Assembly: GCA_021772565.1 (NCBI GenBank)
Contig: JAJFLR010000032.1
Coordinates: 1-37,208, forward strand
Direction: 5' to 3'
Length of the DNA stretch: 37,208 nt
From: Opitutales bacterium
GTDB taxonomy: Bacteria; Verrucomicrobiota; Verrucomicrobiia; Opitutales; JAJFLR01
Program-made: the position numbers and the translations under genes
The notes under the pieces: model-generated
Told to the model about the DNA's origin: nothing
The model's input: only the letters and a program-made list of their open reading frames with translations
Databases searched by the model: none
Part shown: piece after piece, positions 6,068-24,325 of the stretch
Position numbering within the stretch: the stretch's first letter is position 1
Layout: every line of letters starts with the position of its first letter

Positions 6068-6142
6068 TACAAATTATGACCAGGATGTCACAATTCTAAA
6101 TAGTTGATTGAAACAATAAAAAGAACGAACTACATTGGTCAC

Positions 6143-6388
6143 ATGATTACAACATTAAGAGATACTAAAACACGTCTGAGTAAATATGTAAAACTTGTGG
6201 AGAATGGTGAAGATGTAATCATAACAGTACGTGGTAAACCAAAAGCCAGGCTAACTGCAATAACTCAATCAACCACCAAAGACAGAAATACTTGGGCAAA
6301 GAAGCTTACGAAGCTACAAAATGGATTTAAACAAAAATATGATTCCAGTGCTCAAATTGTTTCTAAATTTAGAGAAGATAGATTCTGA
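6143..6388 (+). CDS. antitoxin of the Phd/YefM (prevent-host-death) family
   Basis: The protein binds and neutralises the PIN-domain toxin encoded next to it, and probably represses their common promoter. The N-terminal half has the Phd/YefM fold signature: ITTLRDTKTRLSKYVKLVE, NGEDVIITVRGKPKARL. The C-terminal half, basic and polar, would wrap the toxin. I chose ATG at 6143 because homologues begin at this point. A TTG at 6104 would add 13 residues (MIETIKRTNYIGH), and neither start has a clear ribosome site. The stop shares one base with the toxin start (TGATG), so translation is coupled. Confidence 0.8.
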   Translation: MITTLRDTKTRLSKYVKLVENGEDVIITVRGKPKARLTAITQSTTKDRNTWAKKLTKLQNGFKQKYDSSAQIVSKFREDRF

Positions 6389-6840
6389 TGGATAAATGGT
6401 ACTGGGACACTTCAGCTTTTCTCAAACTATACTGTCCAGAAAGTGATTCTGCAAAGTATATTGAATTAGCAACGCAATCTGAAGGGCTATTACTTAGTTC
6501 ACAAATTTTAGAAATTGAATTCTATTATGCGTTACAACAAAAACAAGTTCGGGGTGAAATAACACCAAACGAAGCAAATACATCATTTGGGCAGTTTTCC
6601 AAAGACATACAAAATAAATATTTTGAGCTTATTCCATTCAGTCAAACTGTAACTAAAAATGCATGCACCCTTTGGGAATTGTGTAGTCAAAAACCAAAAC
6701 CAACATTGCGATCGCTTGATGGACTGCATCTGGCAACTGCAACTATGATGCAATGTAAATTCCTGGTAACAGCTGTTACACGAATGCAGAAAATTGCAGT
6801 GAGAGCTGGAATGATTATACCTGAAATATGTTATAGTTGA
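6388..6840 (+). CDS. PIN-domain ribonuclease toxin (VapC-like)
   Basis: PIN-domain toxins are Mg-dependent RNases that cut tRNA or other RNAs when freed from their antitoxin. The acidic residues expected of the active site are present: D7 in WYWDTSAFLKLY, E44 in ILEIEFYYAL and the Asp of RSLDGLHLATA near residue 112. The 150-residue length is usual. It overlaps the antitoxin by one base. The pair sits between folC and a convergent gene and looks like a later insertion, as such modules often are. Confidence 0.85.
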   Translation: MDKWYWDTSAFLKLYCPESDSAKYIELATQSEGLLLSSQILEIEFYYALQQKQVRGEITPNEANTSFGQFSKDIQNKYFELIPFSQTVTKNACTLWELCSQKPKPTLRSLDGLHLATATMMQCKFLVTAVTRMQKIAVRAGMIIPEICYS

Positions 6841-6860: not shown

Positions 6861-8228
6861 CTAGGTCAATGAGTTTGAGCCTATCGCTTTTTCCAGCAAT
6901 GGCAGCATTACACCTCTTCTAAACAGTGTGATTTGACCGGTACTTGAGGAAACAACAATGGCAATACAGTTGGCCGCATTTGTGATTGCTGCTGCTGCTG
7001 CGTGACGGGATCCCAGACCACTTGGCATTTCAACATGAAACTCTGCCGGCGCATGAATTAAACTTCCTGCAGATTCCAACACACCGTTACCTCTAATTAT
7101 GAAGGCTCCATCAATTGACGAAAATTCTTTGATCGTCTCATCCATAAAAGGATTTAAAACATTTCTGTCTTCTTCTTTATATCCGTAGAATGGGTTCAAC
7201 ACTAATGGCTTCACCATTTTATTAACTTTCTCGGTGTCACCTATCACGAACAGTGTTCCAACGGGTTTACCTTCACGGCCTTCCAGCGCTAATTGTGACG
7301 CAATAGCCATCATCCGTTCCATCACTTCGCCTAAAACAGATGTTGGAAGTAAATCAGATTCTCTGGTAATAACCGTTTGAAACTCACGTTCGATATCTAC
7401 AACAACGAGTGTATCGATTAAGTTGCTGGAGGGAAAACCGCCAACACAACAGAGCCGATCATTAAATTTGAAAACTCCTCGCGTAATACCAATTAATACT
7501 GCACTGCGCAACTGAGAAAGTCGTTGTTTAGAAAATGAGCGCACTTCAATATTTGCAACAATATGTTTTTGGTCAGCTGAATGTTGATAAGCTGAACGAG
7601 TGACCAGCACCGTTCGGAATTTAGGAAATGAATCAGTAATTTCCATTCCACCGGCAAAAGTATCACCAAAAATCAGGAGTGCAGAACACCGCGCTGATCT
7701 GGCAACTTTTTCTGATTCTTTTAAAAATAATCGATTAAATTTGTCTTGAGCTCTTTCAGGCTTTGATAGTGATCCTCCCAGACATTGAAAAATTTTCTCC
7801 TTAAAAATAGAAATGTCAGGTGATGAAACGATATCATCAATTATCTCTTTATTGCTGAAAATTCTGGCTATGGAAGCGAGAAAATTAAGATAATTTTTAG
7901 TTTTTTTAGATGCGAGCAGAAGCAATAATATACGAACTTTTTCATAATCCGCATTTCCTTCATCACGCAATCCACTAACGACTCTTCCTATTGTAAAGAT
8001 ATAAGGTCTGTCCATTTTTATTCTAAGATGCGGCATCGCCACGCCATTAGAAAGATATGAGGACATTGTCTTTTCGCGATCAAGTAACTGTTTGAGTAAT
8101 TTTGATCTACTAATATTTTCCCCAATATTACTCGTTGCCACTACTAATAATTCATCCAATGCGGAATTCAAATCACCGCTTTGAATATCAATGATACGTG
8201 ATTTTGCTAAATATCGATCCAGTCGCAT
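6861..8228 (-). CDS. EIIA-like / PK-C-like / diadenylate cyclase fusion
   Basis: Three domains can be read. Residues 1-150 resemble a PTS EIIA type-2 domain; H67 in GVAMPHLRI sits where the phosphorylated His is expected. Residues about 170-290 (CSALLIFGDTFAGG...TVLVTRSAYQ) resemble the pyruvate kinase C-terminal fold found in archaeal DacZ. Residues 315-450 are a DAC domain: EGREGKPVGTLFVIGD, then DGAFIIRG at 373-380 and GSRHAAAAAIT at 406-416, where canonical enzymes have DGA and RHR. It should make c-di-AMP from two ATP, possibly under control of the phosphorylation state of the first domain. RHA in place of RHR is a deviation that could lower activity. No membrane segment, so cytoplasmic. 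Convergent with the PIN toxin gene, 20 bp apart. The regulatory link is inference. Confidence 0.8.
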   Translation of the reverse strand: MRLDRYLAKSRIIDIQSGDLNSALDELLVVATSNIGENISRSKLLKQLLDREKTMSSYLSNGVAMPHLRIKMDRPYIFTIGRVVSGLRDEGNADYEKVRILLLLLASKKTKNYLNFLASIARIFSNKEIIDDIVSSPDISIFKEKIFQCLGGSLSKPERAQDKFNRLFLKESEKVARSARCSALLIFGDTFAGGMEITDSFPKFRTVLVTRSAYQHSADQKHIVANIEVRSFSKQRLSQLRSAVLIGITRGVFKFNDRLCCVGGFPSSNLIDTLVVVDIEREFQTVITRESDLLPTSVLGEVMERMMAIASQLALEGREGKPVGTLFVIGDTEKVNKMVKPLVLNPFYGYKEEDRNVLNPFMDETIKEFSSIDGAFIIRGNGVLESAGSLIHAPAEFHVEMPSGLGSRHAAAAAITNAANCIAIVVSSSTGQITLFRRGVMLPLLEKAIGSNSLT

Positions 8229-8452: not shown

Positions 8453-8827
8453 TCACTTCTCCCATTCGAGAGCACCCTTTTTATATTCATAGAGAAGACC
8501 AATAACAAGAACACCTAAAAAGAATAATATTGGGGTGAGTATAGGTATGTTGGCAGCCAGAAATTCTCGATAAACAACAACCCAAGGAATAAGAAATACT
8601 ATCTCAACATCAAAAATTATAAATAACATTGCGACTATATAAAATTTTACCGAGAAACGTGGATGCACTTTACCTTCAGCTTCCACACCGCATTCGTATG
8701 CAGAATCTTTAAATTTGTTGGTTTTAGCCCTTTGTCCAAAAATTTGTGAAACTACTATAATTGCCACTGGAATTGTAATAGCTAAAATAATTTGAATCAG
8801 TACAGGTAAATAACTTTCCAGGCTCAT
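8453..8827 (-). CDS. nuoA: NADH-quinone oxidoreductase subunit A
   Basis: NuoA is a small membrane subunit of respiratory complex I, at the junction between the peripheral arm and the proton-pumping arm. The protein has 124 residues and three membrane helices (about 8-30, 63-85 and 92-112). The conserved loop is here: KFKDSAYECGVEAEGKVHPRF, including the YECG Cys, then FSVKFYIVAMLFIIFDVEIVFLIPW. Normally nuoB follows at once. Here the next gene on this strand is the cyclase fusion, 224 bp away, so nuoA is separated from the rest of complex I. The gap 8229-8452 holds no feature I can name. Confidence 0.95.
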   Translation of the reverse strand: MSLESYLPVLIQIILAITIPVAIIVVSQIFGQRAKTNKFKDSAYECGVEAEGKVHPRFSVKFYIVAMLFIIFDVEIVFLIPWVVVYREFLAANIPILTPILFFLGVLVIGLLYEYKKGALEWEK

Positions 8828-10059: not shown

Positions 10060-13000
10060 ATGTTTCACAAAAAATATAATTTAATTAGTCCAATATTAGC
10101 ATTTATTTGCATAATATTATTCAGTTGTAGTAAACCAATTCCAACTGTCGATGATATACTGAAGAGTGCAGAAGAAAAAATTCATCGTGGACAAAATGAT
10201 GAAGCAATTAAAATTTTAAAAGAATTACATCATAATCATCCCAATCATCAAGAAACAATCAGAAATCTTGCATATGCATATTCTCAAAATAATGAATATC
10301 AATTGGCTGGTAGTTTTTATAGAAAATTATCCGAACTAAATCCTGAAGCAAATATATACCGACTCTACTCTGCTCAATTTTATACTGCTAGCAGTGACTT
10401 TGAAAATGCCATAGAAGTTTATAAACTCTATCTTGAAATTGTACCAAATGATGCCGCCACGTGGAAAACTCTTGGACAATTATATCAGGAGCTAAATAAA
10501 AACAGTGAAGCTGAAAAAGCATACCAAAACAGTTACAAGCATAAGCAAAGTGAAGACATAGCAATTCGTATTGGAAAAATTAATCTTCATCAGTTGAAAA
10601 ATTTTACTGAAGCTGAAAAATGGTTTCAAATTGGACTGGAAGGAGATAATCAAACAAACTCTGAATCCTATCTGGGAATGCTTGAGTTATCATTTATAAG
10701 AAAAGATTATGATATTGCAGAAAAAATTATTACTAAACTGGATGCTGCACATCCACATGTATTGGATGTCTCACACCTGGCATCCAAACGCGACGAACTT
10801 CGTAAACTGAAAAAAAATGGGAGTTATTATAATCAAAAAATACTGCAGGCTAAAAAAATTATTTCAAAGAAAAATAAAATTGTAAATGGTGAAACGGATC
10901 TCGAAGTAACCAAGTTAGCAAATAAGTCAAAACAATTACAGAAAGATAAAACTAAACCTGTTTATCAAGATGCTAAGAAGGAAATTTCAAGATCAAAAAT
11001 TAAAAAAATCAGAGAATACGGAAAGACAAAAATCGCCAAAAACTTGTCATCAAATAAATCAATTAAAAAATCTCAGAAAAGAGAAAAATTCTCAAAGAAA
11101 ACCGAGCAGACTGTTTATGATAAAAAAATAAAAACTAGTTCTAAAAGTAAAAGACCAAAAGTTGCAAAAATTGTATCCAAGAATAAAGACATTGATAATG
11201 AGAGTAATCAAACAGAAGACCGATACGCCAATTACTTGAACGACTATTCAAGTGATTACATAACTGAAAATGAAATAGTTAAAGATCCGCCAAACAATAA
11301 GAATCGCGATGCTAGAGTAAAGCGCGAAAAGAAAGCGACAACCAATAAACAGAGGATTCTTAATAAAAAATCTAATTCTAAAGTAGCTACAAAAGATATT
11401 GAGCAAAAAAAATCTATTAGTTCTATTCAGAAAAAGAAATTATTAATTGCTAAAAAATCCTCAGTAAAAAAATCAAATAGAAAGTCAAAAAATATTAAAA
11501 GTGAATATGACGTTTTAGATGAAAAAATATTAGCATCATCTGATAATTCACAAACTAATAATAATAAGACTCCTACTAGTGCTTTAGACATAGCTACATC
11601 AACATTAAATAGTAACAGTAATCTAAAAAATGGTGCATTGGATCAGTCAACGATTGAAGAGAACAGTTTAAGTGAGGAAAAAAGTTATGATAGTTATGTG
11701 AGTAATTATTTAGCTGAGTTCATGAAAAGCAGTAAGCAACCTGTAGAAACTACATCTAAAAATACTGAAACCCGTGTTTTCAAAAGTGAAGTAAAGCCGA
11801 TGGAAGCAGTCAAGGTGATAGCAAACAATAACGTAGTTGAATACAAAAATAAAAGTTTACCAAAAAACGAATATTTCGAAAAAGAAATTACTTTATCTAC
11901 TGATTTATCAGAAACAAAAAAATCTGATTCGAGAAAATCACCAGTTATTAGTAAACGTGTAGATCTGGCTTCAGATAAATTTGATTTTGAAGATAGAAAT
12001 AAAAGTATCGATTTACAAGTAGAAGAAAATTCGAAGAATAAAGCGTTAGTAACTAAAAGCAATACCAATTTGCCAAAAGATACTATTGCCAAAAATCTAA
12101 CTACTGGCAAAGTTGATACAACTTCAGCAAGTCGAAAAGTTCATCCAGCTAGCAAACCAGAAAAATTTGAGAAAGATTTGAAGCCAGTTAAAATATTAAC
12201 TCAGAAAACTAAAGATAAAGCTGATATAATTATTGAAGAGTCAGTAACAGTTGCGAGAAATAACACGGATAAAATTTTAAATGAAACGAAAGGACTAACA
12301 AATAAAAACAAATCTGCAGTAAAAGATATAGAGTTACCTAAAGGCGTTGTAGTTCAAAAAGAAACTAAATCTGATAAAATAAAAATTAGTCAGAATATTT
12401 CTAAAACTTCTGATAAGCCCATAATAGTTGCCTCAAATGAAATTAAGACAAAACATAAAACTGTAAAAAAGGCGAAGAAACCAAAATCATTTGTTTCAGC
12501 GAATAAATCAAAAAAGAAAAAGATTGATAATATAGAAATCGCTAAAAAAAGATCCCCCTCAAAGCGAGTAAAAAAACCTGATACTGATAAACAAAAAAAA
12601 GTTGCTAAAGATATTGATGAACAAGCAATAGCTTTAAATGATAAAGAATCAAAGAGCAAATATAAGACCTTAAATGAAACGATATTAGAGCAGGCTGATA
12701 AACCCTTATCGTTAAGAGATCGTATTAAACTTAATGTTAAAAGAAAAATTTATGCTGAAACTCAGACAGAAGAATGGAGCAATAAAACATCTAAAACAGT
12801 TGAAAAAGATAATGATGCAGTTAAAACTGAAAAAGAATATGATCAGTTCGCTGATATTGAGATAGCTTCAAATTCATACAAAAAGAGCAAGTCTGCAAGA
12901 AGTACCAATAACAAAGAAAAAGTCTCATCCAAGAAACAAAAAAAACGGAAGGATACTTCATCAAAAGAACTTATCGCAAAAACTCCTAAACCTAAGAAAT

Positions 13001-13989
13001 CGATTCGAAAAAATAGATCAAAAAAAGATTCCAAGCCTAAAACAAAAATTGCAAAATCTGATTCTTCCAAGAAAAACAATACACAAATCCGCAATGACAA
13101 TAAGATTCATACTGCTAGTAATAAAGTTAAAAATACTAAAAATAATGATGAATATGTAGCTAAAGTTGATTATAGAAAAAATCAGACCAGAGAAGTACGG
13201 AATAGTAGTAGAAAAAATTACGGTCAGTCGACACGCATTGAACCTAAAAGTACAACTACTAAAACAGCAAAGATATCAAAACCTAGAAAAAAATTAGTTC
13301 CTGAAGTTGTCGAAATTGAGCAAGACGTTAGAACTGGCAGCAATAATGAATTTCGTAGATCAAATGACGTTGCGGCTATCAGACCAAAGCCCAGAAAAAG
13401 ATTATCTCTTGCTGATACTAATAATAAACCAAGACCAAGAAAACGGTTAACATTAAACAGAAGTAACAATTCGAATAAGGATGATTCAAATGGGAGTCAG
13501 TCTGTTTCGTATAATTCATTACTAGGTCAAGCCGAATCTTTAATAAGCGCAGGTAAATATTTGGAATCAATAAATATACTCCACAAGATTTTAGAAAAAG
13601 ATGACAATAGAGCGGAGCCCTGGATATTACTTTCACTTTCATATCTCAAGGCAGAGCAGCCAGATTATGCAATTAAAGCATCGTATGAAGCAGTAAAACG
13701 ATGGCCGGAAATAGCAATTTATGCTGTCAATTATTTAAAGGTAATTGAGAGGACATCATCAAAGGATAAATTATATCAGGAGATACTTAAGATTAAGGGA
13801 AATTTTTCAAATTCACCGGAAATAGAATTATATCAGGGACACACTTATGCTAATGTATTTAAGCAACCTGTAATCGCCAAAAAACATTATGAGGAATTTA
13901 TTAAACTGGCACCTAATCATCCACATTCTAAAACTATTAGAGCAAAGATAAGACGTCTGAATAGTGAAATCATGGTTAATGAGAGTTAG
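10060..13989 (+). CDS. giant TPR lipoprotein with long lysine-rich disordered centre
   Basis: A 1309-residue protein with a lipoprotein signal: hydrophobic segment then LFSC, C23 being the lipidation site. Residues about 30-240 are tetratricopeptide repeats (for instance DEAIKILKELHHNHPNHQET, ENAIEVYKLYLEIVPNDAAT). Residues about 250-1150 are low-complexity, dominated by Lys, Ser, Asn, Thr and Asp, strongly basic and presumably disordered. Within it are two similar Tyr-rich blocks (DRYANYLNDYSSDYITEN and KSYDSYVSNYLAEFMKS) and related KPRKRLSLADT / RPRKRLTLNRS blocks. TPRs return from about 1165 to the end. The frame stays open for 3.9 kb, so it is a real gene. It is probably a periplasmic or outer-membrane scaffold whose basic arm could bind peptidoglycan, polysaccharide or nucleic acid; function unknown. 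Confidence 0.85.
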   Translation: MFHKKYNLISPILAFICIILFSCSKPIPTVDDILKSAEEKIHRGQNDEAIKILKELHHNHPNHQETIRNLAYAYSQNNEYQLAGSFYRKLSELNPEANIYRLYSAQFYTASSDFENAIEVYKLYLEIVPNDAATWKTLGQLYQELNKNSEAEKAYQNSYKHKQSEDIAIRIGKINLHQLKNFTEAEKWFQIGLEGDNQTNSESYLGMLELSFIRKDYDIAEKIITKLDAAHPHVLDVSHLASKRDELRKLKKNGSYYNQKILQAKKIISKKNKIVNGETDLEVTKLANKSKQLQKDKTKPVYQDAKKEISRSKIKKIREYGKTKIAKNLSSNKSIKKSQKREKFSKKTEQTVYDKKIKTSSKSKRPKVAKIVSKNKDIDNESNQTEDRYANYLNDYSSDYITENEIVKDPPNNKNRDARVKREKKATTNKQRILNKKSNSKVATKDIEQKKSISSIQKKKLLIAKKSSVKKSNRKSKNIKSEYDVLDEKILASSDNSQTNNNKTPTSALDIATSTLNSNSNLKNGALDQSTIEENSLSEEKSYDSYVSNYLAEFMKSSKQPVETTSKNTETRVFKSEVKPMEAVKVIANNNVVEYKNKSLPKNEYFEKEITLSTDLSETKKSDSRKSPVISKRVDLASDKFDFEDRNKSIDLQVEENSKNKALVTKSNTNLPKDTIAKNLTTGKVDTTSASRKVHPASKPEKFEKDLKPVKILTQKTKDKADIIIEESVTVARNNTDKILNETKGLTNKNKSAVKDIELPKGVVVQKETKSDKIKISQNISKTSDKPIIVASNEIKTKHKTVKKAKKPKSFVSANKSKKKKIDNIEIAKKRSPSKRVKKPDTDKQKKVAKDIDEQAIALNDKESKSKYKTLNETILEQADKPLSLRDRIKLNVKRKIYAETQTEEWSNKTSKTVEKDNDAVKTEKEYDQFADIEIASNSYKKSKSARSTNNKEKVSSKKQKKRKDTSSKELIAKTPKPKKSIRKNRSKKDSKPKTKIAKSDSSKKNNTQIRNDNKIHTASNKVKNTKNNDEYVAKVDYRKNQTREVRNSSRKNYGQSTRIEPKSTTTKTAKISKPRKKLVPEVVEIEQDVRTGSNNEFRRSNDVAAIRPKPRKRLSLADTNNKPRPRKRLTLNRSNNSNKDDSNGSQSVSYNSLLGQAESLISAGKYLESINILHKILEKDDNRAEPWILLSLSYLKAEQPDYAIKASYEAVKRWPEIAIYAVNYLKVIERTSSKDKLYQEILKIKGNFSNSPEIELYQGHTYANVFKQPVIAKKHYEEFIKLAPNHPHSKTIRAKIRRLNSEIMVNES

Positions 13990-21036: not shown

Positions 21037-23394
21037 TTAACTCAACCATTTTGTTAGCATAGTATTCAGCTTTTCCAAATCGGTTGGCTTCACTAAGTAA
21101 TCATCCATTCCAGCTTCCAGACATTTCTTTTTGTCTTCGGGATATGCCAACGCTGTTAGTGCAATAATAGGAACATTTATAGTGCTATTCTCATTCATTT
21201 TTCGAATACGTTTTGTTGCCTCAAACCCGTTTAACTGAGGCATCTGACAATCCATAAATATTAAATCATGCTTACCGACCTCATATGATTGTATAGCAAC
21301 AACTCCATTTTCAGCCATATCAACATTACAACCAAATTTACTTAATAATGAATTGATCACTTCCTGATTTGTAAGATCATCATCTACAAGTAAAATATTT
21401 TTACCAATAAGATCTATATGTCCAGTGCAACTAGTCTGAGATACTTGATGAATATTTTCAATTCCCATTAGTTTTGCCAAGCATCTTATTAAAGAAAAAT
21501 GTCCAACGGGTTTACTTAAATATGAGTTATAGTTTATATCAGCTAATTGCTGATTTGACATATACAGTCCAAACGGTAAGAGTAAGACTCTTTTTACATA
21601 CGCAATATTAGGATCATTAGCAAGTTCTCTAGAAAACATTTTATAATCAATATCCGGTATCGAATCATTTACTAAAATTATATCAAAAGGTTGATTATTA
21701 ATATTAGCGTTGTGCAAACAAGTTAATGCTTCTTTGCTATTACAAACAGCTTCACTATCAATACCCTCTATTTCCAAATTTTTAGAAATAATTGCACCAA
21801 TTTTTTTATTATCAAAAAGAATTAAAACTTTAATTTTTCTAAATTTTTCGGATAGTTGAGTTTTATCAAATTCTCCTACTGTGTATTCTATATTGAACCA
21901 AAAGGTACTTCCAACATTGAGTTCGGAATTCACTCCGATATCTCCATTAAATAACTTAACTAATCGTCTACATATCGATAATCCCAATCCAGTCCCACCA
22001 AAACGTCTGGTCATTGAACTATCTGCTTGAGTAAATGTCTCGAATATTAATTCCTGGTCGCTTTCAGCTACGCCGATACCACTATCTGTTATTTCGAAAC
22101 GTAGCTTTGTTGAGCCCTCATTCAAAACAGTTACTATGACCTGCCCTTTTTGGGTAAATTTTACAGCATTTCCAATAAGATTATGCAATATCTGCCGAAG
22201 TCGAGTAGGATCAGTTTGAATTATATATTCAACACCCGGCGTAATAAAGTAAGCAATCTCGACACCTTTTTTATAAGCTTTTTCACTGTGTAATTCGCAA
22301 ATTTCTTCCAGGAACAGTCGTATATCAAATTCAATATTTTCAAGTATTACTTGACCTGAATCTAATTTTGAAAAATTTAGAATATTATTAATAAGTTCAA
22401 TTAGCTGATCTCCTGATCTTATTGCAATTTTAACAAAATGAGTTTGTTCCTCATCAAGTGAAGTTGAAGCTAATAAGCTTAGCATACCGGTTACTCCATT
22501 CATTGGTGTTCTAATTTCATGACTCATGTTGGCCAAAAACTCACTCTTAATTCTATCCGCTCTTTCAGCTGCTTCTTTTTCAGCTCTAATACTATTTTTC
22601 TCGGCTAAATCACCCCCCATCCTGTGAAATGCCTGCATTAATGATCCAATTTCGTCCTGACGATTAGTTTCAATTTTTAAATCAAAATTTCCCTTACCAA
22701 TCTCTTTAGAATATCCAACCAGTTTCTGAATAGGTGCAGTCAAATAACGAGTAAATAATATAGACAATATAACTGCAAATATAAGTGTCACCATTGTAAT
22801 TATTACAACCGTTATTATATTTTTATAATAAGTATCCATTGTTGTCTTATTTACAAGATCACGCATCTGAGTAACATTTTTATTTTTACTATTCAAAGAC
22901 ATAACAAGATGTATACCCCCAAGACACAGGTCCTGAATCCAGATAGATTGCCATAAATGCAGAGACTTACTATCCTCCTCTTTTAAAATAATTTGCTTAT
23001 TTTCAGGAATGAACAACATCGCAGGAATAGTAAGCAACGGCTTATCAAAATTTGATAAAGCGCGCTCCCCATCGTGAATAATTTTTCCCGCAGCATTAAA
23101 TACTGATACGCTATCAACATTTGGCTGTTGTAAAATAACGTTTAGAAGCTCATAAATTAAATCAACATCAAGATGATAGAGTGGATTAATTAAATTTTTC
23201 GACAGTGGTTTTATAATTGAATTAGCCTCAGTCTGAATCTGGTTCATTTCCCTTTCAACTGCCATATCAATACTCGATTTACTAAGTTGTTGAAATGTGT
23301 TGTGGAAATTATAAAGTAAAACGCTACTTAACACCAATACAATAGAACATAATATTGAGGTAATTAAAATTAAATAACGTTTACTTAATAACAT
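21037..23394 (-). CDS. hybrid sensor histidine kinase with two receiver domains
   Basis: A membrane sensor kinase of 785 residues. TM1 is about 7-28 and TM2 about 192-215, enclosing a periplasmic sensor region. HAMP is about 215-270 (LTAPIQKLVGYSKEIGKGNF). The HisKA box is SEFLANMSHEIRTPMNG with H292. The ATPase domain has GNAVKFTQKG, DSGIGV and FGGTGLGLSICRRLVKLF. The first receiver (about 515-640) is degenerate: the usual phospho-Asp position reads DIILVND and the acidic pocket is weakened. The last receiver (about 665-785) is intact, with LLVDDD, D715 in LIFMDCQMP and KPTD. It ends the operon porin, binding protein, kinase, 7 bp after the binding-protein gene. No output domain or separate regulator lies nearby. 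Confidence 0.93.
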   Translation of the reverse strand: MLLSKRYLILITSILCSIVLVLSSVLLYNFHNTFQQLSKSSIDMAVEREMNQIQTEANSIIKPLSKNLINPLYHLDVDLIYELLNVILQQPNVDSVSVFNAAGKIIHDGERALSNFDKPLLTIPAMLFIPENKQIILKEEDSKSLHLWQSIWIQDLCLGGIHLVMSLNSKNKNVTQMRDLVNKTTMDTYYKNIITVVIITMVTLIFAVILSILFTRYLTAPIQKLVGYSKEIGKGNFDLKIETNRQDEIGSLMQAFHRMGGDLAEKNSIRAEKEAAERADRIKSEFLANMSHEIRTPMNGVTGMLSLLASTSLDEEQTHFVKIAIRSGDQLIELINNILNFSKLDSGQVILENIEFDIRLFLEEICELHSEKAYKKGVEIAYFITPGVEYIIQTDPTRLRQILHNLIGNAVKFTQKGQVIVTVLNEGSTKLRFEITDSGIGVAESDQELIFETFTQADSSMTRRFGGTGLGLSICRRLVKLFNGDIGVNSELNVGSTFWFNIEYTVGEFDKTQLSEKFRKIKVLILFDNKKIGAIISKNLEIEGIDSEAVCNSKEALTCLHNANINNQPFDIILVNDSIPDIDYKMFSRELANDPNIAYVKRVLLLPFGLYMSNQQLADINYNSYLSKPVGHFSLIRCLAKLMGIENIHQVSQTSCTGHIDLIGKNILLVDDDLTNQEVINSLLSKFGCNVDMAENGVVAIQSYEVGKHDLIFMDCQMPQLNGFEATKRIRKMNENSTINVPIIALTALAYPEDKKKCLEAGMDDYLVKPTDLEKLNTMLTKWLS

Positions 23395-23401
23395 GAATTA
23401 C

Positions 23402-24325
23402 TTACAGCGAATTTAAATTTTCATGAACTTTATTGAGCACAATCCTGGCACGATTGAGCTCATTATTTATATCTTCATTAATTTCATCAAATTTTTTTGT
23501 TTTCTGATAAGCAAATAACACATTTCTCGCAGAAGGATCATTTTCGATATTGAGTAAAATTGATTTCAGTCGTTTTTTTATAGGATCAGGTAAATCATTT
23601 CTGACTACTTCGATTGACCTGGGCAATGTATCAGACTTATGAAATATATTTAATTTTTTTCTAAAAACTACAGGAGTATGATCAACTTTTTTCCAATCTT
23701 CGTTATTATAAGCACCCGCATCAACAAGTCCCTTAAATACCCATGTCGCAATATTGATTTCACTATTGGCAAATATATAACCCACATTGTTTCCTGAAGG
23801 TTTTTTTTCCACCGAATGCAAAAACTCCAATGTCAGCCCGGCATTTATCATCTCCATTAATGGAACATAGAATGCGGTACTCGAACCAGGATCTTCCAAT
23901 ACTATTTTACGACCCTTCAAATCAGTTAACTGATTTATATCATTTCCCTTTTTAGAAATAAAAATTGTGTAATAATTAGGTGAATGTTTTTTCCATTTTC
24001 GAACTAATAATTCGGCGTTAGTAGTCTGTTGATATATTAATGCTGAAAATATTGACTCCGTAATCCAGTCAATCTTACCCTCCTGCAAATACTGAATCAT
24101 CTGATTATTATCTCTAGCCATTAATACCTTACCTTTCTTAATTCCCAAATCTTTCATATGTGAAACTGCATAATTCAGCATTGGCTTTAAGTAACTGTAA
24201 TGTTTTTGGGGATTATTACTAACCTTTCCAATAACCAATATACTATCTCTATTATTAGCAAAAATAGATACCTGAAAAAATATTAATATGTTGAATACTA
24301 ATAAATAATTACGAAACAAATACAT
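23402..24325 (-). CDS. PhnD-like periplasmic binding protein
   Basis: A 307-residue protein with a signal peptide (residues 1-23, ending IFA) and the phosphonate-binding-like fold (PhnD, PF12974). Visible family blocks are LKPMLNYAVSHMKDLGIKKG, WITESIFSALIYQQTTNAEL, LVRKWKKHSPNYYTIFISKK, LTDLKGRKIVLEDPGSSTAF and GLVDAGAYNNEDW. DPGSSTAF corresponds to the (D/P)-S-T-S loop that grips the anion. No ABC permease or ATPase is encoded here. Since the gene is between a porin and a sensor kinase, the protein probably delivers the ligand to the kinase's periplasmic domain; that is inference. Confidence 0.85.
   Translation of the reverse strand: MYLFRNYLLVFNILIFFQVSIFANNRDSILVIGKVSNNPQKHYSYLKPMLNYAVSHMKDLGIKKGKVLMARDNNQMIQYLQEGKIDWITESIFSALIYQQTTNAELLVRKWKKHSPNYYTIFISKKGNDINQLTDLKGRKIVLEDPGSSTAFYVPLMEMINAGLTLEFLHSVEKKPSGNNVGYIFANSEINIATWVFKGLVDAGAYNNEDWKKVDHTPVVFRKKLNIFHKSDTLPRSIEVVRNDLPDPIKKRLKSILLNIENDPSARNVLFAYQKTKKFDEINEDINNELNRARIVLNKVHENLNSL

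Follow-up and report, generated by a model that had tools for sequence, protein, structure and literature searches.

An EIIA–DacZ_P–DAC fusion protein, a predicted diadenylate cyclase with a candidate PTS input, in one order of Verrucomicrobia

The locus

The window (the whole stretch of DNA analysed here, 37,208 nucleotides) belongs to the 3.57 Mb draft genome, 95% complete, of a bacterium of the order Opitutales. On its minus strand lies an open reading frame of 455 codons (6861..8228), translated without internal stop, whose product is an EIIA–DacZ_P–DAC fusion protein and a predicted diadenylate cyclase. The gene upstream is of the nuoA type (Oxidored_q4; 8453..8827, minus) and is a conserved neighbour: in 15 of the 17 loci compared (window among them), an ORF of this type precedes the cyclase gene on its strand.

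Other features of the window were recorded in passing. A Phd/YefM antitoxin and PIN-domain pair (6104-6840, plus) lies downstream of the cyclase gene and is convergent to it. On the plus strand, 10060-13989 encodes a 1309-aa protein that, by eye, has TPR-like ends flanking a very long middle rich in Lys and Ser; an ORF of the same cluster is found near the cyclase in 8 of the 17 loci, the window included. At 21037-24325 (minus), the translations, likewise read by eye, suggested a hybrid histidine kinase-like gene next to one for a PhnD-like binding protein. No Rfam RNA was found in the window at the gathering threshold. A phage or plasmid origin was considered and rejected, as there was no phage match and the plasmid matches were two haloarchaeal DacZ proteins.

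Domain architecture

Three domains are recognised by Pfam in the protein, each with a score at least twice its cut-off. The first, PTS_EIIA_2 (PF00359; residues 40-138; 7815..8111, minus), scores 54.3 bits against a cut-off of 27; the second, DacZ_P (PF21755; residues 164-285; 7374..7739, minus), a probable sensor domain of PK_C-like character, scores 69.0 against 27.4; and the third, the DAC catalytic domain (PF02457; residues 314-440; 6909..7289, minus), scores 73.9 against 27. The sequence-only reading that preceded this work had placed an EIIA domain, a PK-C-like middle and a DAC domain in one polypeptide, and this observation is confirmed: the fusion protein is real. The families that it had named stood for the two ends (PF00359 and PF02457) and failed for the middle, where PF02887 (PK_C) is absent from the matches up to E 10 and PF21755 is found instead.

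The best NCBIfam model is DacZ, with 111.2 bits, against 18-36 bits for the CdaM, CdaA, CdaS and DisA models; the earlier view that the protein resembles DacZ rather than CdaA or DisA is thus upheld, although its score lies below the DacZ model's own cut-off (equivalog NF041371, 430). Scores also stay below the curated cut-offs of CdaA (34.6 against 188.8 bits) and DisA (17.7 against 201), and the PtsN model gives 40.1 bits against 138.7.

In phmmer searches, diadenylate cyclase structures were matched by the DAC part and PtsN structures by the EIIA part. An alignment of the window protein with 23 relatives (A2, 24 rows), used as a search profile against solved structures, retrieved a diadenylate cyclase at E 9.5e-12 and PtsN (EIIA-Ntr) at E 3.6e-17, the latter being the best solved-structure relative in this profile search. 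According to Pfam, EIIA_2 and DAC are present in 24/24 rows of this alignment, DacZ_P in 22/24 and PK_C in 1/24 (E 0.0042). An AlphaFold2 model built from an alignment of 3 rows had a mean pLDDT of 31.4 and was set aside.

Distribution in the order and the phylum

Among 52 genomes of the same order, the window's own included, 47 contain a match to the protein (E <= 0.001), and chance is therefore excluded. In a larger sample of the order, 289 of 372 genomes have a match at this threshold, a few of which (e.g., G213 and G306) are weak enough to be possibly other EIIA domains. A DAC domain was found in 47 of the 52 genomes, and two of them only in G031.

In a draw of the phylum, 341 of 387 genomes match, and the matches listed outside the order mostly consist of the EIIA part alone. 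The full EIIA-DacZ-DAC arrangement occurs in at least six genomes outside the order (G374, G642, G693, G580, G403, and G503), with 30-33% identity, and EIIA-less forms occur as well. Two named relatives, MAGs from Opitutaceae and from Verrucomicrobia, are 51% identical to the window protein. Within one order of Verrucomicrobia, the fusion gene is both old and widely distributed.

Several genomes depart from this pattern. Four members of genus g19 (G018, G067, G115, and G127), 97-99% complete, lack any match to the cyclase; in G018, a search for the DAC family also found none. Two DacZ-like proteins of about 300 aa, L168 (G089) and L125 (G047), are without EIIA, have DGG for DGA and are probably paralogues; L125 is the sole DAC found in G047. 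The second DAC of G031 (L033, C1:4472499-4475849) has, by eye, the look of CdaA, with 402 aa and an RHA motif, and it adjoins a DHH-type protein that resembles, again by eye, a c-di-AMP phosphodiesterase or a nanoRNase.

The EIIA domain and its candidate phosphohistidine

The sequence-only reading had proposed His67 (codon 8028..8030, minus) as a candidate phosphohistidine, and the alignment with PtsN is in agreement: H67 stands in the motif GVAMPH and is aligned with the histidine of GVAIPH in PtsN, which we take to be the PtsN phosphosite. The general form of this motif, GVAxPH, is common to both proteins. Over the 109 rows of the order alignment, position 67 is His in 75, Tyr in 16, a gap in 9, Cys in 4, Asn in 2, Ser in 2, and Leu in 1.

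EIIA domains of the PtsN type have a second active-site histidine. At this site the window protein differs from PtsN, which also has no cyclase fused to it: the residue is Tyr113, as in 86 of the 109 order rows (11 others have gaps). Outside the order, His is found at position 113 in two of the six full fusions (G374 and G642). We infer that Tyr113 may stop onward transfer of the phosphate to an EIIB.

PTS context

Partners of the PTS are frequent in the order. Enzyme I was found in 41 of the 52 genomes (own included), HPr in 44, PF00359 in 43, and PTS_EIIC (PF02378) in 5. In 28 of these genomes, among them that of the window, PF00359 matches nothing but the fusion (counting G010 and G051, in which it is split over two contigs); Enzyme I was found in 23 of the 28, HPr also in 21, and PTS_EIIC (PF02378) in none. 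Considering all genomes with Enzyme I, PF02378 was not found in 36 of 41. These counts cover PF02378 for permeases and PF00359 for EIIA, with mannose-, glucose- and other-type families outside them.

Of ptsI and ptsH, which the sequence-only reading had suggested looking for, the first is present in the window's genome and encodes a full Enzyme I with no additional Pfam domain (596 aa; TIGR01417 score 597 bits against 341.7); the second, HPr, was not found in this draft genome and may lie in a gap of the draft. In the genomes of the f27-g45 group, such as G060 and G159, HPr was found and no Enzyme I was found.

We consider that the protein is probably an active DacZ-type c-di-AMP synthase, equipped with a PtsN-like EIIA input that would be phosphorylated by the PTS. 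Control of c-di-AMP by the PTS appears more plausible through this co-occurrence and through the patterns of loss in the order.

Losses of His67 and of Enzyme I

From five families of the order, a set of 45 reduced genomes (0.6-1.1 Mb) was drawn. Of these, 41 gave a match to the protein, 14 to HPr, and 3 to Enzyme I. One of the three with Enzyme I, G157, keeps H67; the other two, G058 and G119, are without a cyclase match and retain both Enzyme I and HPr, which is the reverse of the usual loss. In the other reduced genomes, the DG and RH residues of the DAC part stay and the EIIA part is altered in many. It is gone in f25 and in four of the six readable f26 rows, and eroded in most of f28 and part of f7-g51; in f27-g45, Tyr replaces H67. 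His67 is kept in f7-g7, f27-g28, G025, G152, and four f7-g51 rows. Searched by tblastn with the EIIA part, the fetched sequence flanking the shortened genes yielded no match below E 1.5.

The state of position 67 was compared with Enzyme I in 78 genomes. Where Enzyme I was found, His is present in 32 and another residue in 4; where it was not found (absence being read from drafts, in which contigs may be missing), the numbers are 15 with His, 19 with another residue, and 8 in which the EIIA domain is absent. With kinship ignored, the association gives a Fisher value of 1.8e-6. Left out of the tests were G047 (taken as an EIIA-less paralogue), G175 (truncated), G051 (split on two contigs), G054 (no Enzyme I data), and L031 and L032, the two named contigs. 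Two contig pieces, with their letters not joined, supplied the EIIA state and the tree row of G010 and likewise of G157.

Kinship was then considered with a quick, midpoint-rooted tree of the DacZ_P-DAC part, on which losses only were mapped. By this mapping, Enzyme I was lost 6 times and H67 8 times; in 6 of the 8 cases H67 disappeared on a branch without Enzyme I, and such branches make up 37% of the exposed length (p 0.032, one-sided, one test among several). Five of those six lie in one clade (f7, f25, f27, and f28; 34 rows) that corresponds to a single Enzyme I loss, and they are therefore repeats within one history. A test of independent pairs, with 4 pairs on supported branches, 1.3 in the same direction and 0.1 in the opposite one, was not significant and is powerless. 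The ratio of EIIA to DAC divergence is 2.7-4.7 within five groups without Enzyme I (f27-g45, f27-g28, f7-g7, f7-g51, and f28), and in the other groups it is 1.6-2.7 in 10 of 12, with 3.7 in f4 and 4.5 in f16. Little weight is given to this measure, because the five groups are not independent. In addition, reduced genomes shed regulatory parts anyway, which counts against reading the losses as a sign of a PTS input.

There are also exceptions to the association. G037, in which Enzyme I was found, has Ser67 in a degenerate EIIA domain, and the three f4 genomes (G003, G029, and G045) keep an EIIA domain with Tyr67 despite having Enzyme I and HPr. Tyr113 at the second histidine site and the HPr that was not found in the window's draft genome also weigh against a PTS input, as do 15 genomes in which His67 is kept and Enzyme I was not found. 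The f4 case lends some credit to a different reading, in which the synthase is active and its EIIA domain is now a phosphate-free binding or structural module, H67 being mostly an inherited residue. This would also suit the 11 f27-g45 genomes with Tyr67, whose EIIA domains retain 78% identity among themselves, and the 15 genomes that keep His without a found Enzyme I; moreover, in the 36 rows with Enzyme I, Tyr113 is invariant and H67 stands at only 89%. However, H67 is kept in 32 of these 36 genomes, and six of its eight losses fall where Enzyme I was not found. We therefore regard a phosphate-free module as rather unlikely, and prefer an EIIA input phosphorylated by the PTS.

It is also conceivable that the EIIA domain is phosphorylated and the output runs in reverse or elsewhere, with c-di-AMP or the DAC part controlling the EIIA domain, which would itself be a PTS regulator (of K+ transport, for instance). 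As the sole EIIA_2 found in 28 of the 52 genomes, the domain might need to fill the usual roles of PtsN. Against this, the EIIA part is missing in 8 of the 78 genomes while DacZ_P-DAC stays, and N-terminal input with C-terminal catalysis is the usual domain layout; we judge such a reversal improbable.

Catalytic residues of the DAC part

Of the 109 rows in the order alignment, 2 are EIIA-only fragments and 107 hold the DAC domain. The DGA motif of the window protein (D373-G374-A375; 7104..7112, minus) has its Asp and Gly in 107/107 of these rows, and position 375 is Ala in 100, Gly in 4, Cys in 2, and Ser in 1. At the RHR site, the sequence-only reading had noted RHA, and this is correct: the window protein has R408-H409-A410 (6999..7007, minus) within the stretch G406-S407-R408-H409-A410. 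Residues D373, G374, G406, R408, H409, and S427 are invariant in 107/107 rows, those from genomes of 0.6-1.1 Mb included. The third residue of the RHR site is Ala in 86 rows, Thr in 9, Ser in 6, Met in 4, Val in 1, and Gly in 1, and never Arg. Position 429, which corresponds to the second Glu of VSEE in CdaA, is Ser in 105 rows and Thr in 2, and the window protein reads VSSS.

The two annotated haloarchaeal DacZ proteins have RHH and VLSES, so that both departures from CdaA are common to them, and the CdaA-type protein of G031 has RHA too. The third Arg of RHR and the VSEE motif, both absent here, are thus, as far as these comparisons indicate, not diagnostic for DacZ types. By the same comparison, the serine in place of Glu124 of CdaA is a real difference, and one shared with the two haloarchaeal proteins. 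Two reviews, in the parts available, call DGA and RHR important for catalysis (PMC7288161; PMC5575661). The passage of the first that names the active-site residues of CdaA gives Thr102, Arg103, His104, and Glu124, and the third Arg is absent from this list (PMC7288161). The DacZ of H. volcanii, whose sequence is outside the haloarchaeal pair compared here, is described in the accessible text as active with Mn2+ (PMC6741144).

The doubt about activity that the sequence-only reading had attached to RHA is thereby largely removed, since the third residue varies, with His at this site in two DacZ proteins of haloarchaea; RHA would seem no strong reason to doubt the predicted activity. That the DAC domain is dead or makes another product, as the lack of the third Arg in all 107 order rows, the Ser or Thr at position 429, the weight given to RHR by the reviews and the listing of Glu124 might suggest, is very improbable given the haloarchaeal proteins with the same two departures, the other motif residues that are invariant even in reduced genomes, and the RHA of G031; a dead enzyme due to RHA is mostly rejected on the variable third residue, the haloarchaeal DacZ and the CdaA residue list.

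Relation to known systems

Corrigan and Gruendling are said to have defined, in 2013, a class DacD by its EIIA-type domain, and Galperin reportedly reviewed the architectures of DAC proteins in 2023. In the portion available of a 2019 article, class names such as DacD are cited to Corrigan and Gruendling (2013), and the list of DacD members comprises proteins of Lacunisphaera, Puniceicoccaceae, Coraliomargarita, Opitutae, and Verrucomicrobia (PMC6741144). These taxa agree with the relatives of the window protein (the Opitutaceae MAG and the Verrucomicrobia MAG), a likeness at the level of taxa, and the window protein may belong to this class. With a DacD class drawn from Opitutae taxa and a middle domain already named in Pfam, the architecture is probably not new. 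What is added here is the PTS context and the pattern of loss, neither of which was found in the open-licence literature, in the text available and among the matches listed. Titles and abstracts of that literature, among the matches listed, contain no bench-tested EIIA-DAC enzyme, and no experiment on a DacD protein was found in its accessible parts.

Among other cyclases, the archaeal DacZ/CdaZ proteins are closest: like the window protein, they have a PK_C-like domain followed by DAC, and departures of the RHx and VSES type are common to both. The trait of the DacZ superfamily, a DacZ-type sensor domain before DAC, is found in the window protein (DacZ_P, 69.0 bits). Unlike it, the haloarchaeal DacZ protein that was checked has DACZ_N and no EIIA domain.

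A PTS EIIA protein that sets a nucleotide second messenger, as proposed here, has precedents. According to the available text, phosphorylated EIIA-Ntr stimulates the accumulation of (p)ppGpp through SpoT in Caulobacter (PMC4848567), and EIIA-Glc regulates c-di-GMP in Vibrio cholerae (PMC6877527). In these two bacteria, however, the target of the EIIA is a separate protein and the messengers are others, whereas the window protein is one chain. In Brucella, PTS proteins without a permease form a working relay, thought to be regulatory only (PMC2937029, abstract). The Brucella EIIAs are PTS proteins of their own, and the abstract makes no mention of a link to a cyclase (PMC2937029).

A possible relay from the PTS to c-di-AMP

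If the EIIA domain is indeed the PTS-phosphorylated input of an active synthase, the following mechanism can be proposed. The C-terminal DAC domain, acting as a dimer or a higher oligomer as expected from its family, would join two ATP into c-di-AMP. Phosphate would pass from PEP through Enzyme I and HPr to H67, and the phosphorylated and free forms of the EIIA domain would contact DacZ_P-DAC differently, turning synthesis up or down. Without PTS permeases, the level of phosphate would mostly reflect the supply of PEP, and the energy state of the cell may thus set c-di-AMP directly. By analogy with other bacteria, the state of central carbon metabolism would be tied through c-di-AMP to K+ and osmotic balance.

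A broader proposal, which we put forward tentatively, is that much of the order has a dedicated relay, in which Enzyme I, HPr and an EIIA domain fused to the cell's only DAC would pass the supply of PEP directly to c-di-AMP. The PTS would then no longer be mainly a sugar transporter; in lineages that lose Enzyme I, this phosphate switch would be free to decay and the enzyme would become unlinked from the PTS.

For many DAC enzymes, to our knowledge, the signals received by the N-terminal domains are unknown. The input domain here is of a well-understood biochemical kind and is thus concretely testable, and the reduced genomes offer natural variants for comparison, with Tyr67 or with the EIIA domain deleted. 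If the proposal is true, a single protein would couple carbon state to c-di-AMP.
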